In this document: piece by piece, positions 10,101 through 43,582 of the stretch
How positions within the stretch are numbered: the first letter of the stretch is position 1
Layout: each line of letters starts with the position of its first letter
DNA from: Desulfobulbaceae bacterium
Lineage (GTDB): Bacteria; Desulfobacterota; Desulfobulbia; Desulfobulbales; SURF-16
Assembly (NCBI GenBank): GCA_002868945.1
Contig: PKTX01000072.1
Span: 1 to 43,582 of the forward strand
Reading direction: 5' to 3'
DNA length: 43,582 bases
Translations under genes and position numbers: made by a program
Notes under the pieces: model-generated
What the model was told of the DNA's origin: nothing
The model's database searches: none
Seen by the model: only the letters and a program-made list of their open reading frames with translations

Positions 10101-10288
10101 AACAGCCCGTTGAAAAATTACTGCTCGTGCCGCTGCGGCGCTCAAAATTCGGCTCACAATACCCCTGGCCCATGGAAACTGCACCCCAAGGGTACTCGGA
10201 GTGTCGCAGGCTCCCTTACCTCCTCCGGGCGGGCATTTTCCGCCTCATTTCTCCTTGTCTCAGCTAGACTCGCTACCTTTTTCAACGG
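10101..10288. repeat. Repeat family C, copy 1, between ptsH and ptsI
   Basis: The 188-bp segment begins AACAGCCCGTTGAAAAA and ends TTTTTCAACGG, which is an inverted terminal pair. Its right half (10197-10288) matches the reverse complement of 25905-26003 over about 95 bp at roughly 80 percent by eye, including GGAGTGTCGCAGGCTCCC. It fills almost the whole ptsH-ptsI spacer and stops 12 nt short of the ptsI start codon. It has no open frame of its own. It looks like a non-autonomous mobile or MITE-like element. Confidence 0.75.
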
Positions 10289-11298: not shown

Positions 11299-11943
11299 AT
11301 GGAACTTTTCATTCTGCTTATTCCTCTTTTACTTATCACATCCCTCAGTGCCCCGGCACGACAGGAGGAGAGTGATGGCCCGGATGAGACAACCCTTCTG
11401 GTCCGAGCCGTGCGCCAGGGTGACAAGCAGGCCTTTAACCGCCTGGTTCTGCTCTATCAGAACCGTATTTACAACCTGGCCTTCAACTATGTAAAGAACG
11501 ACGAAGAGGCCAAAGACCTGGCCCAGGATATATTTGTTACCGCCTATCGGGCCTTACCTAAACTGCGGGAAGACAACAAGTTCGGCGCCTGGCTCTACCA
11601 GATCGGCCTCAACCATTGCCGCAACCGCTATAAGCGCCTGAAGAGAAGAGGTTTTTTTACCAACACATCATTGGATGACGACCAGTCGAGCCTGCAACTC
11701 TCCGGCAAAAGCAGCCCGGAAAAAGAGGTTGAGGAAAAACGAACCATCTCGATCGTTCGCCAGGCCATCGACACCCTGAAGGATTCGGAGAAAGAGATCC
11801 TCGTCCTTCGCGACTTGCAGGGTATGCCCTATGATGAAATTGGTGAAATTCTGGAAATTCCCCTGGGCACGGTGAAGTCAAAGCTGAGCCGGGCCAGGAC
11901 AAGCCTGAAGAATAAGTTGAAAAGCGTCTATCCCAAGCTGTAA
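11299..11943 (+). CDS. ECF-type RNA polymerase sigma factor (RpoE-like)
   Basis: ECF sigma factors direct RNA polymerase to stress promoters and are held by an anti-sigma factor. The 214-residue product has region 2 (QAFNRLVLLYQNRIYNLAFN..DEEAKDLAQDIFVTAY, about residues 42-90) and region 4 with the helix-turn-helix DEIGEILEIPLGTVKSKLSRAR (about 180-200). The only in-frame ATG before region 2 gives a hydrophobic first 19 residues (MELFILLIPLLLITSLSAP), which is odd for a cytosolic sigma factor and lacks an SD. A GGAGGAG site at about 11363 leads to an out-of-frame ATG, so the true start is uncertain. The next gene is a zinc-finger anti-sigma factor and the one after is DegP, giving an RpoE-RseA-DegP-like cassette. 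Confidence 0.92.
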   Translation: MELFILLIPLLLITSLSAPARQEESDGPDETTLLVRAVRQGDKQAFNRLVLLYQNRIYNLAFNYVKNDEEAKDLAQDIFVTAYRALPKLREDNKFGAWLYQIGLNHCRNRYKRLKRRGFFTNTSLDDDQSSLQLSGKSSPEKEVEEKRTISIVRQAIDTLKDSEKEILVLRDLQGMPYDEIGEILEIPLGTVKSKLSRARTSLKNKLKSVYPKL

Positions 11944-12006
11944 GCAGGGTGGGCGCTGCAAGCGGCCACCCCGGTAAGATGATGTGATCACGGTAGCCAT
12001 AAGGGT

Positions 12007-12178
12007 ATCTTGCATAATGAGATATTTCGGAGCTCGCCTACCTGTTCGACTTTGAAAAGCATAGGAAATAAAAACAGCAACATATCGAGCAGATGTGAGG
12101 TTTTTTGTTTTCACAGCGACGAAAAAATCGGCCAAGTATGCAAGCCTGCGAGACTCGGAAAGAGCACCTATGCAAGAT
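12007..12178 (+). repeat. Repeat family B, copy 1, between sigma and anti-sigma genes
   Basis: The 172-bp segment starts with ATCTTGCATA (12007-12016) and ends with the perfect inverse TATGCAAGAT (12169-12178). Its core (GTTCGACTTTGAAAAGCATA, then GGAAATAAAAACAGCAACAT) matches the copy on the other strand at 37424-37540, which lacks about 60 bp of the interior present here. It carries no coding frame that looks real. The preceding AAGGGT is also shared with the other copies. A non-autonomous mobile element is the simplest reading. Confidence 0.75.
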
Positions 12179-12211
12179 GGCCTCAAGAGAAATTCAAACC
12201 ATAAACTCACT

Positions 12212-13090
12212 ATGAATTGCATCGACTGCCAAAACCAATTCTCCGATTTTATTGATGATGAAATCTCTTCGGAAACTGCCCGTATCTTCAAGGGGCACCT
12301 GGCCAGTTGCCCAGCCTGCGCCGATGAATGGCACCTCTTCCGGCAGACCGTTCATGCCATGCACAGCTTCCCCGAACAAAAGGTGCCGGCTGACTTTATC
12401 ATCGGCATCAATGAAAAGCTGACGCCCCAGCCCTTTGCCAAACTGCGGGGCTGGCTCTCCCTCATGACCCAGCACAAGTTGACGGCCACCAGTGCCCTGG
12501 CCACCCTGGTGGTGGGGGTCATCAGCGCCGCTGTTTTGCAACTCTCACCAATGGATATGTACAAGAACGCCGTCAAGGAAGACCCGGGTCAGCAGAGCAG
12601 CGTCCAGACCCAGGCCACCAACCGCGATCGCACCAACTACTATCCCAACACCCCTTACCTGGCGGCCAACACCGAACCGAGCCGCACCCCCACCAACCGG
12701 GCCCGTGTCCAGTTTACCCCGGTAAAGCAGAGCAGTCCCACGATCAGCCAGCCCTCCCTCATTGATTCACGCGGATCGCCCAGCCTATCACATTTCGCCA
12801 CTGCCGCCCCCCCATTTTCCAGCCTGGGCAGCCTGACACCGGACCTGGTTGTCACTGTCCATGCCGACAACACGGCCTATCAGCATGCCCTCATCCGGCA
12901 GATGACCTCCAACCGCAACTGGCAGACCCATATCAGCGGCAACACCCTGCTGGTCACCCTGCCCTGCAGCCAGTTCAACACCTTCCAGCATCTCTTCGGC
13001 CCAGCCAACCCCCATATCAACACCAAGGAACTCTCCCGTATCCGCCGGTCGGCAACGAGCATGCTCACCGTGGCAGTGGCCTTCCACTGA
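12212..13090 (+). CDS. Zinc-finger anti-sigma factor, membrane-anchored
   Basis: The product (292 residues from ATG 12212) begins MNCIDCQNQFSDFIDDEI and has the ZAS-type motif HLASCPAC with His29, Cys33 and Cys36, preceded by Cys3 and Cys6. One TM helix (LTATSALATLVVGVISAAVL, about 90-112) follows. The rest, about 180 residues rich in Ser, Thr, Pro and Asn, should be periplasmic. This layout fits RseA-like sensors that hold an ECF sigma factor at the inner membrane. It sits 268 bp downstream of the sigma gene with a repeat element in the gap. The start lacks a strong SD. An in-frame ATG at 12170, inside the end of the repeat and after GGAAAG, would add 14 residues and may be used. Confidence 0.85.
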   Translation: MNCIDCQNQFSDFIDDEISSETARIFKGHLASCPACADEWHLFRQTVHAMHSFPEQKVPADFIIGINEKLTPQPFAKLRGWLSLMTQHKLTATSALATLVVGVISAAVLQLSPMDMYKNAVKEDPGQQSSVQTQATNRDRTNYYPNTPYLAANTEPSRTPTNRARVQFTPVKQSSPTISQPSLIDSRGSPSLSHFATAAPPFSSLGSLTPDLVVTVHADNTAYQHALIRQMTSNRNWQTHISGNTLLVTLPCSQFNTFQHLFGPANPHINTKELSRIRRSATSMLTVAVAFH

Positions 13091-13357: not shown

Positions 13358-14806
13358 ATGCGCACCCCCGTAACTATTCGCACCATACCCGATCCCCGTT
13401 TTGTCATGACCAGTTTGCTGGTCGCCTTTTTCTTGGTACTGCAACCCATGCTGGACCAGGCCCGGGCCGCCCGCCCGGAAAGCTTTGCCGACCTGGTGGA
13501 GAGCCACGGCGCCACCGTGGTCAACATCTACACCACCCAGACCGTCAAGGCCCCCACCCTGCCGCAGTTCAACTTCAAGGGCTCACCCCATGAACTGCCT
13601 GAACTCTTTGAGCGATTCTTCGGCAACCCGCACACAGCGCCCAACGGTAAACCGCGTACCCAAAAGCGCACCAGTCTCGGCTCCGGTGTACTTGTCTCAG
13701 TGGACGGCTATATCCTCACCAACAACCATGTTATCGAGAATGCCGATGAAATCCATGTCCGTTTTGCCGATCACAAGGAATTTGAGGCCAAGATCATCGG
13801 CCGTGACAAGATGACCGATATTGCCCTGATCAAGATCGATACGGAGGAGAGGCTGCCCTTTGTTAAATTCGGCAACTCCGAAAAGCTGCGCGTCGGCGAC
13901 TGGGTGGTTGCCATCGGCAATCCCTTCGGCTTTGAGCAGACTGTCACGGCCGGTATTGTCAGCGGCATGGGCAGAACCCTGGGCAACGGTGCCTACGACA
14001 ACTTCATCCAGACCGATGCCTCCATCAACCCCGGCAATTCCGGCGGTCCCCTCTTTGATCTTGATGGTAAGATGGTGGGCATCAACACCGCCATCTACTC
14101 CCGCTCCGGCGGCAATATCGGCATCGGTTTCGCCATTCCGGTAAACATGGTGAAAAACGTCATGGACCAGCTCCTTGAACATGGTCAGGTGACCAGGGGC
14201 TGGCTCGGTGTCCGCATTCAAACGGTGAACCAGGATATTGCCGCACAATTCGGCCTTGATCGTCCCTATGGCGCCCTGGTGGGGCAGGTAGACAAGGACA
14301 GCCCCGCCGACAAGGCCGGCATCCGTCAGGGTGATATCATCATCCGCTTCAAGGACAAGGAAATCTCGGAAATGACCATGCTGCCCACCATGGTGGCCCA
14401 GACCCCGGTGGGAGAGAAGGCCAAGGTCACTGTCTTCAGAAAGGGCAAGGAAAAAAACCTCACCGTGACCATCGGCAAGCTCAAGGAGGAGAGCGACCTG
14501 AGCCAGGCGGTGGAGGAAGAAACCGCCTCACTGGGCATGACCGTTCAGGAGCTCACGCCGGAGCTGGCCGAATCCCTGCAGCTTGGCCAGGCCACCGGCG
14601 TCTTGGTCAGCAATGTTGAAAGCGGCAGCCCGGCCGCCATGGCCGGTCTCAGGCGCGGCGACCTCATCACCGAGCTCAACCAGCAGGAGGTCTCCGATCT
14701 GGACAGCTTCAGCGCCTTGCTGAGCCAGGCCAAGGAGGCGGACAGAATTCTCCTGCTGGTCCAGCGCGGCGCCCAGAGCCGCTACGTGGTGCTCAAGACC
14801 AACTAG
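13358..14806 (+). CDS. degP: Periplasmic serine protease of the DegP/HtrA (Do) family
   Basis: DegP-type proteases degrade or refold misfolded envelope proteins. The 482-residue precursor has a basic N-terminus and a signal-like helix (VMTSLLVAFFLVLQPML, residues 16-32) with a probable cleavage after the ARA near 35-38. The trypsin-like domain shows His124 (LTNNHVIENADEI), Asp154 (MTDIALIKID) and Ser228 (NPGNSGGPLFD). Two PDZ domains follow (about 255-360 and 385-480), each with a GVLV or GALV-type carboxylate loop. The length matches the family. It follows the sigma and anti-sigma genes, so it is the likely target gene of that sigma factor. A strong bidirectional terminator follows at 14837. 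Confidence 0.96.
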   Translation: MRTPVTIRTIPDPRFVMTSLLVAFFLVLQPMLDQARAARPESFADLVESHGATVVNIYTTQTVKAPTLPQFNFKGSPHELPELFERFFGNPHTAPNGKPRTQKRTSLGSGVLVSVDGYILTNNHVIENADEIHVRFADHKEFEAKIIGRDKMTDIALIKIDTEERLPFVKFGNSEKLRVGDWVVAIGNPFGFEQTVTAGIVSGMGRTLGNGAYDNFIQTDASINPGNSGGPLFDLDGKMVGINTAIYSRSGGNIGIGFAIPVNMVKNVMDQLLEHGQVTRGWLGVRIQTVNQDIAAQFGLDRPYGALVGQVDKDSPADKAGIRQGDIIIRFKDKEISEMTMLPTMVAQTPVGEKAKVTVFRKGKEKNLTVTIGKLKEESDLSQAVEEETASLGMTVQELTPELAESLQLGQATGVLVSNVESGSPAAMAGLRRGDLITELNQQEVSDLDSFSALLSQAKEADRILLLVQRGAQSRYVVLKTN

Positions 14807-25742: not shown

Positions 25743-26126
25743 GCCGCCGTCCTCCCCGCCCTCTGCTGCCCAACCGACAAACACGGCACTAACGCGCCTG
25801 CCGCCTGAAAAGCATTGATATTGCCCCGATGTCAGGCGTCAGGCCGCAAATCCGCTACGCCGTTTTTTTACTACTCCCCCATAACGTCTCACCCTCGAAC
25901 AGCTAACAGCCCGTTGAAAAACGGTAGCAAGCGAAGCTGAGGCCAGGAAAAACGAGGCGAAAAAAGCGCACCCGCAGGAGGTAAGGGAGCCTGCGACACT
26001 CCGAAGTATCTCCTGCTTCAGGGCATCCTTCTGTTTTTTTTGGGGGGGAGTGAAACTTGCATATTTTGCGACCCATCCGTCACTTTCTTCTTGCCTCTAG
26101 GAACCGTTCAGTCATAAACTTGCTCT
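25743..26126. other. Spacer between the SH3 gene and folA, containing a repeat and a homopolymer junction
   Basis: No gene is supported here. The stretch holds repeat family C copy 2 (25905-26003) and, just after it, a run of eight T followed directly by seven G (26034-26048). Such a junction is rare in this sequence and could vary in length by slippage. It lies about 80 bp before the folA start. Confidence 0.6.
25905..26003. repeat. Repeat family C, copy 2
   Basis: Begins AACAGCCCGTTGAAAAA, identical to the left end of copy 1 at 10101. Read in reverse complement it matches 10197-10288 along its whole length, with the best run around GGAGTGTCGCAGGCTCCC and the end TTTTTCAACGG. Similarity may continue a little beyond 26003. 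Only one end of the element can be defined here. Confidence 0.75.
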
Positions 26127-36881: not shown

Positions 36882-37104
36882 AGGAGATTGTCCTGAACAT
36901 CGACGAAAACAGAGGCTCGGGTCGCGGCAGGACTCAGCATCAAGGAGGCGGTGCGCACCGCCGGCCTTGGAATCCCCGGCCTCTGCCACCTCTCCTGTCA
37001 AAGCGAAAAAGAGTCGCCTTGCCGACTCTACCTGGTTGAGGCGAACGGCCAACAGGTACGGGCCTGCAAGCCCAGGAGGAACCGGAGTTGGCGGTGCTAA
37101 CCAG

Positions 37105-37243
37105 TGCCTGTCCAGAAATGGCCCTTTCATCCGATCTCGGCGTCATGCTCAAAAAATAATGCTCGGAATATCAGATATATGCCTGCGCTTATTTTTCTCG
37201 CAGTCCTTGATCTCGAACGAAATGACCTATTTCTGGACAGACA
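37105..37243 (+). mobile_element. Repeat family A: 139-bp MITE-like element with 8-bp target duplication
   Basis: Both ends carry an inverted repeat: TGCCTGTCCAGAAATGGCCC at the left, and TGTCTGTCCAGAAATAGGTC as the reverse complement of the right. It is flanked by the direct repeat CTAACCAG at 37097-37104 and 37244-37251. Its removal restores the reading frame of the host gene. The inner part matches the copy that starts at 43487 on the opposite strand. It has no transposase, so it must have been moved by an element elsewhere. Confidence 0.9.
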
Positions 37244-37423
37244 CTAACCAGCAGTCAGGAATTAATCGCCCAGGGGATCAAACAACTGGAGGCGCTGGGC
37301 ACCAACCACTACGAGGACGAGCGCGCTCCATGCAGCTGGTATCTGCGGCTGCATGGCCGCCAGGTGACCATTTTTCGAGGCTACCCACTGCTTGGGTGGC
37401 ATGTCCTGGCAGGGCTCATGGAG

Positions 37424-37540
37424 ATCTTGAATAATTGCTCTTTTGCCCGACATGCTGCCGTTTTTATTTTCTATCCTTCTCAAACTCGAACAGATAAGCG
37501 AGCGAAGCGAGACTCTGAAATATCTAATCACGATACCCTT
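37424..37540 (-). repeat. Repeat family B, copy 2, inside the dead ferredoxin-like gene
   Basis: Read on the minus strand it starts AAGGGTATCGTGATTAGATA and ends AAGAGCAATTATTCAAGAT. It aligns with 12001-12178 across the core GTTCGAGTTTGAGAAGGATA and then GAAAATAAAAACGGCAGCAT, but lacks about 60 bp of that copy's interior and has extra bases (CTTCGCTCG) near its start. Insertion into the dead gene supports past mobility. I cannot define a target duplication with confidence. Confidence 0.72.
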
Positions 37541-43132: not shown

Positions 43133-43486
43133 CGTTTAGCGGAACCACAAGGAAATATCCGCCCACGGCGGATTTTGACCAGCCGGCAAGGCGAGGTCGT
43201 CAAAAGAGCAATGCTGCTCTCTGCCCTTACCATATTCAGGCAGAGCCTGCCAAAAAAGTGGCGGCCGACCCTGGCCGGTCGGCTATAAGAGCACTCATCC
43301 AATATACCCTTTATTCTTTGCCACTGCCGTCTTCATATGATAGCAAGAAGGGAGTTCGTCTCTGTCGGGACACCGACCACTTTTCGGTGTCCCGACGCAA
43401 CAGCGGCCTGCACCCCGACTGGCGCCGGCTCCAATAGGTCGTTACCCAGCGAACAAAACGACAGACACCTTTTCACTCATAAATAG
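43133..43486. other. Non-coding region with strong hairpins upstream of the helicase gene
   Basis: No gene is supported. It holds two clean inverted repeats: GCCGACC-CTGGCC-GGTCGGC (43264-43283), and the longer 43364-43396 listed separately. The promoter of the helicase gene should lie at the left end, but I cannot define it. Confidence 0.5.
43364..43396. other. Perfect 13-bp hairpin
   Basis: GTCGGGACACCGA pairs exactly with TCGGTGTCCCGAC around the 7-nt loop CCACTTT. No U tract follows on either strand. It is far more perfect than chance would give. It could be an operator, an RNA structure or part of a repeat family not seen elsewhere in the window. Confidence 0.7.
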
Positions 43487-43582
43487 TGTCTGTCCAGAAA
43501 TAGGTCATTTCGTTCGAGATCAAGGACTGCGAGAAAAATAAGCGCGCCCTGAAAGAAGTGCCCTTGGGGTGCAGGCATATAT
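43487..43582 (-). mobile_element. Repeat family A, copy 2, cut by the window edge
   Basis: From 43487 the sequence TGTCTGTCCAGAAATAGGTC and the next 38 bases match the reverse complement of the right end of the element at 37105-37243 exactly, up to AAATAAGCGC. It then has about 25 bases not in copy 1 (43545-43569), and resumes the match with GCAGGCATATAT at the window edge. The other end and any target duplication lie outside the window. The upstream flank is CACTCATAAATAG. Confidence 0.85.

Follow-up and report, generated by a model that had tools for sequence, protein, structure and literature searches.

Introduction

Short, repeated, hairpin-forming elements have been described in several groups of bacteria. 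MITEs mobilised by IS5-family transposases have terminal repeats, 4-bp duplications, no coding capacity and a high copy number. The element analysed here shares all of these features, and it differs in having a core without clear similarity to the IS beyond the ends and in occurring phylum-wide with other ends. NEMIS (Correia) elements of Neisseria are short and hairpin-forming, as is the present element; they are described as often co-transcribed with neighbouring genes, and their processing by RNase III has been reported (PMC2229807, PMC10969869). Their termini carry TA (PMC2229807), whereas the present element lacks TA termini and has ends of the form GG.../GTG... (GGG.../...GGCC) with 4- or 6-bp duplications. 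For ERIC and YPAL of enterobacteria, the element RNA is reported to affect the stability of neighbouring transcripts (PMC2229807). Their sequence, ends and hosts are unlike those of the present element, for which a stability effect could be proposed only by analogy. Finally, a phylogenetically conserved RNA structure has been proposed for the CIR repeats of Caulobacter and Brucella (PMC2229807), and in this respect they resemble our element. CIR repeats are described there as having two arms, a linker and a GANTC motif, whereas the present element is one bulged hairpin with mobile ends.

The element between the sigma and anti-sigma factor genes

The DNA analysed (hereafter the window) is a stretch of 43,582 nucleotides from a Desulfobulbaceae bacterium. 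Its hydrogenase and HdrA-like genes suggest an anaerobe, possibly a sulfate reducer. The locus under study encodes, all on the plus strand, an ECF sigma factor (11299..11943; Pfam PF04542 and PF08281, Sigma70_r2 and r4_2), an anti-sigma factor with a zf-HC2 zinc-finger domain (12212..13090; supported by Pfam and by the loci of relatives) and, as downstream neighbour, a serine protease of the DegP/HtrA family (13358..14806; TIGR02037 and Pfam). The end of the sigma ORF at 11943 and the conserved anti-sigma ATG at 12212 leave a gap of 268 bp, exactly as the earlier note on this DNA had given it.

Comparison with the other members of its family identified most of this gap as a class-B MITE of 180 bp on the plus strand (12003..12182), an old copy with extra segments inside both arms. 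The left terminal inverted repeat, GGGTATCTTGCATA (12003..12016, plus strand), was delimited by comparison with other copies; the right one, TATGCAAGATGGCC (12169..12182, minus strand), has the reverse complement GGCCATCTTGCATA, which is identical to the left at 12 of 14 positions. The element is flanked by the target-site copies ATAA on the left (11999..12002, plus strand), which matches ATAAGAGAAATT at the empty site of the congeners G001 and G003, and TCAA on the right (12183..12186, plus strand), assigned from the sequence and the relatives and identical to ATAA at two of four positions. The earlier note had taken ATCTTGCATA (12007-12016) and TATGCAAGAT (12169-12178) as the ends. These 10-bp sequences are indeed perfect inverted copies, but on either side the element extends 4 bp beyond them. 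Inverted pairs of at least 10 bp occurred in 26 of 2000 Markov-simulated spacers, so a 10-bp repeat alone is mildly unusual and weak evidence; the element was accepted because of homology, that is, its many matches in the genome, and not because of the inverted repeat alone.

A stretch at 12020..12155 (plus strand) matches the whole length of the covariance model R1 (51.4 bits, E=2.1e-10 in the window; E=1.8e-8 in the genome-wide model search), and it corresponds to the better-folding strand, which has the same direction as the operon. Other copies in the same genome score up to 150 bits against 51 bits for the window copy. This low score and the decayed duplication indicate that the window copy is older than most. 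Its end variant ATCTTGCATAAT occurs at only four end sites in the genome (L228, L229, L230 and window position 12003); the C/G exchange is found in both arms of the window copy and in the left arm only of L230.

Orthologous sigma/anti-sigma loci were compared in 20 other genomes of the same family, three congeners and 17 more distant genomes. In the congeners G001 and G002, the spacers measure 79 and 83 bp (82 and 86 nt including the stop codon). The G003 contig breaks off within the spacer, leaving 59 nt before the anti-sigma gene, in which the same empty site is visible. All three congeners have (A/T)AAGAGAAATT where the window has ATAA, the element and TCAAGAGAAATT; the empty site reads AATAAGAGAAATT in G001 and G003 and AAAAAGAGAAATT in G002. 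An insertion between the sigma and anti-sigma genes is thus supported, since the congeners lack the element and show a matching empty site. The identity of the anti-sigma factor to those of the congeners is 57-62%, so that the empty site does not come from a sister strain. Among the 17 more distant loci, counted with the stop codon, the genes are 10-12 nt apart in ten and 24-91 nt apart in five; the remaining two spacers measure 315 nt (L054, in G012) and 351 nt (L066, in G014). The spacer of L054 resembles degenerate tandem repeats (gggtttatccaaac...).

The earlier note had proposed that the element split a tightly coupled pair of genes. Relatives free of the element do exist, but the congener spacers are already 79 and 83 bp long and spacings of 10-12 nt are found only in more distant genera. 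A spacer of about 80 bp was therefore already present when the element inserted, and no tightly coupled pair was split. The comparison with related loci that the note had called for thus found the element absent and the empty site present in congeners; neither a spacer common to all relatives nor a lack of repeats elsewhere was found.

The leader of the anti-sigma gene, AAGAGAAATT...TAAA (12183..12211, plus strand), is conserved in the three congeners. These approximately 30 nt before the ATG (L049, L050 and L051) contain no clear Shine-Dalgarno sequence, and the remaining spacer is not alignable by eye.

Copies of the element family

The proposal of the earlier note that a repeated mobile element, its "family B", lies between the two genes was confirmed by copies elsewhere in the genome and by relatives without the element. 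At least 41 matches to the 172 bp bounded by the 10-bp inversions were found in the same genome (40 of 171 first-look candidates scored), and the covariance model gave 136 matches (E<=0.01). The end pattern occurred at 287 sites, against none for the reversed pattern. Copies of class B have ends of the type GGSYATCTTGAATAAT. When compared with their flanks, they showed a basic form of 141 bp that ends in GGGTATCTTGAATAAT and, on the other side, in GGCCATCTTGAATAAT, and longer forms of about 165, 189-192 and 217 bp. Some copies, among them L009, L034 and the one in the window, have optional segments of about 24 nt (CGGAGTCTCGCAGGCTCGCTTACC and its near reverse complement) in one or both arms. 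The positions of these segments are fixed, and their presence accounts for the 165-bp and approximately 189-bp forms.

Of 72 class-B elements bounded by recognised ends, 46 are flanked by identical 4-bp sequences; after shuffling, the mean was 2.2 and the maximum 6. One of the 72 (L140 84-331) overlaps another. No other duplication length stood out. The 72 elements range from 64 to 248 bp. Coding capacity is absent: in any one frame, 0 to 7 of the 40 phylum elements are open over at least 44 codons. The family therefore has the properties by which MITEs are recognised, namely terminal inverted repeats, a duplication of fixed length and small size without a transposase gene. The gene context of the copies was not used, as a crude ORF caller left 9 of 30 loci unresolved, the window locus included.

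Possible further traces of the family were seen in the window. Segments at 37420-37538 (minus strand) and 43486-43582 (plus strand) match the covariance model weakly (19.1 and 16.4 bits), and 37185-37246 and 43484-43545 form a perfect inverted pair of 62 nt. Another inverted pair, of 87 nt and 84% complementary (10196-10282 and 25918-26004), probably represents further decayed copies, because parts of it match family elements. Elsewhere, the 1.7-Mb genome G037 has 269 end sites at no more than one mismatch, or about 160 per Mb.

The probable mobilising transposase

IS elements were reached through end-only matches in related genomes and a transposase-domain search. The IS5-family elements of these genomes are 1286-1334 bp long, plus one deleted copy of 952 bp, and have ends such as GGGTTCCTTGAAAAAT / GGGCACCTTGAATAAT. 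Exact 4-bp duplications accompany six of eight IS end pairs, and 17 bp of one IS end (L207) match the MITE end without a mismatch. The transposases score above the NCBIfam IS5_4 cut-off, and a search of 146 genomes of the order located such a transposase in 22 (E<=1e-20). Autonomous partners with matching ends are thus present in other genomes of the order. No clear similarity between the MITE and the IS was detected beyond the ends. We infer that the MITE was moved in trans by an IS5-family transposase.

No IS5 transposase of the matching kind was found in the element's own genome at E<=1e-20, so the active helper is either missing from the assembly or gone. A scan of 57 stretches of this genome for an autonomous partner returned end pairs that were nearly all short elements. 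The pairs L098 (about 2.4 kb) and L100 (about 1.7-2.0 kb) are wide and partly loose, and they showed no transposase-like ORF at a glance and no matching 4-bp flanks. In searches with DDE_Tnp_1 and DDE_5, the IS5-family element was reached only via G050, and the DDE_5 loci, considered as partners, had no such ends. Among the loci examined there were no end pairs of class A, C, D or E at a distance of 700-2600 bp.

The conserved core and its ends

Along their full length, 24 elements with 141-144 bp, taken from 19 genomes within the order, fold into a bulged hairpin of 42 pairs, 21 of which show compensatory changes; 93.5% of cells are paired, against 81.0% in shuffles and 36-51% when the alignment is slid. 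A covariance model built from this order-wide hairpin and searched in the own genome and in the phylum matched 50 of 297 genomes of the phylum, in 41 of 199 genera (E<=1e-5). All 40 phylum elements examined are 139-146 nt long. A core of about 109 nt has compensatory changes in 33 of 39 pairs (44 sequences from 40 genomes), with 94.6% of cells paired against 75.0% in shuffled and 40-54% in slid controls. By the measure of compensatory change applied to structured RNAs, the core therefore exceeds its controls. The hairpin of the window copy has a predicted energy of -48.7 kcal/mol (z -3.1). Rfam gave no match above the gathering score in the window and only sub-threshold matches in four loci, and no description of the approximately 109-nt core was recognised in a literature search.

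A palindrome kept only as double-stranded DNA is expected to show no strand preference. In the 40 phylum elements, the mean folding energy is -59.2 kcal/mol on the better-folding strand and -44.8 kcal/mol on the other, being lower in 40 of 40, which are not 40 independent trials because the elements are related; the z-score is lower on that strand in 35 of 40. For the core alone, the consensus folds of the two strands have -24.8 and -7.7 kcal/mol. A test on the pairs common to the folds of both strands gave a modest difference (14 G-U versus 5 A-C cells); parsimony changes gave a larger difference (46 versus 20), but one that depends on the plus-strand fold. The better-folding strand of the window copy runs in the direction of operon transcription (-48.7 versus -45.6 kcal/mol).

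The ends found with the core across the phylum are GGGTATCTTGAATAAT-like, of the CTCTAAAAAT type, or GTGTCCATCCAGAAAT, GAGACCTTTGAAAAAT and GGAGGCTGTCCGAGAAT. Exact 4-bp duplications flank 11 of 40 phylum elements, a count that mixes end types. The own genome carries the same core both in class B, with 4-bp duplications, and in class A, with ends GTGTCTGTCCAGAAAT and 6-bp duplications (14 of 19). One class-A MITE lies in the window (37104..37244, minus strand), with ends GTGTCTGTCCAGAAAT, a perfect 6-bp duplication TGGTTA and 109.7 bits to the covariance model. Duplications of 6 bp are unusual for IS5-family elements. The class-A and class-B cores of this genome are 64.5% identical (alignment score 84; mean 28.5 and maximum 52 in 500 shuffles), and of 16 positions their ends share 9 and 8. 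At 78% identity, the class-A core is closer to L267, an element with class-B ends from another family, than to the class-B core of its own genome. A tree of the cores requires at least 11 changes of end type, against a possible minimum of 5, and different end types occur together in groups with good support (97, 98). The class labels A-E in this tree were given by simple string rules, and only the split between A and B, which is backed by duplication length, is relied on, because B, C and D ends are alike and may belong to one transposase family.

Origin of the insertion and possible effect on the operon

We consider, with a probability of about 0.93, that 12003-12182 is an old non-autonomous MITE inserted by an IS5-family transposase. 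The transposase would have acted in trans on terminal repeats of about 16 bp and placed the element at ATAA in the existing spacer of about 80 bp, with 4 bp duplicated. This account builds on the observed repeat family, its ends, its 4-bp duplication, the empty site of the relatives and the presence, within the order, of IS5-family elements whose ends match. In favour of an ancestral long spacer with coincidental repeat-like ends, two of the 17 more distant loci (L054 and L066) have independently long spacers. These two spacers, however, have no significant match to family elements (best E 7.8 and 0.71), the complete spacers of the congeners are short, and the window segment matches a high-copy family over its full length; copy number and empty site already refute this reading, to which we assign next to no probability.

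The earlier note had also suggested that an ATG at 12170, inside the element end, could start the anti-sigma protein. This ATG is in frame and would add 14 residues (MQDGLKRNSNHKLT), but the start at 12212 and its leader are conserved in the congeners, and pairing with the anti-Shine-Dalgarno sequence (-3.5 kcal/mol, against a median of -3.0 kcal/mol for random 22-mers) makes it no better a ribosome site. ATG 12170 is therefore probably not the anti-sigma start, and an N-terminally extended protein appears very improbable. The region 11850-12300 showed no promoter- or terminator-like site. With such sites absent and ATG 12170 unsupported, a hairpin in the joint mRNA is the remaining route by which the inserted MITE could act on sigma and anti-sigma expression, as might be supposed from the analogous repeats. 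Read in its better-folding direction, the element would form a long hairpin in the sigma/anti-sigma mRNA, and RNase cleavage or altered stability at this hairpin could change the proportion of sigma factor to anti-sigma factor. The element might even have been recruited as a cis-acting RNA controlling this proportion, as a processing site, a stability element or a translation brake. Its sense orientation on the better-folding strand would fit such a role, as would its outer arms, which in spite of its age still pair perfectly over 10 bp, with C/G where the family has A/T. Yet it is one of more than 100 copies, scores far below typical ones, is absent from the congeners and brings no promoter- or terminator-like site, so that we regard co-option as unlikely.

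Significance

Bacterial MITEs are usually read as remnants that are defined by their ends. In the present case it is the middle that is conserved, in fold, length and strand, across a phylum while the ends differ, and in one genome the duplications differ in length. Throughout the phylum the core may act as a mobile RNA with a selected structure, or as a foldback specific to one strand: selection would maintain the bulged hairpin on that strand and the total length of about 141 nt, the ends would be exchanged, and different transposases would have spread it; we advance this tentatively, at somewhat less than even odds. If true, the core would be a cargo that changes its transposon and not the remnant of one. 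A conserved middle with differing ends makes two old questions testable, namely whether selection acts on MITE hairpins as RNA and whether different transposases can spread a single core. The window locus, with a hairpin between a sigma factor and its anti-sigma factor, is a natural experiment.
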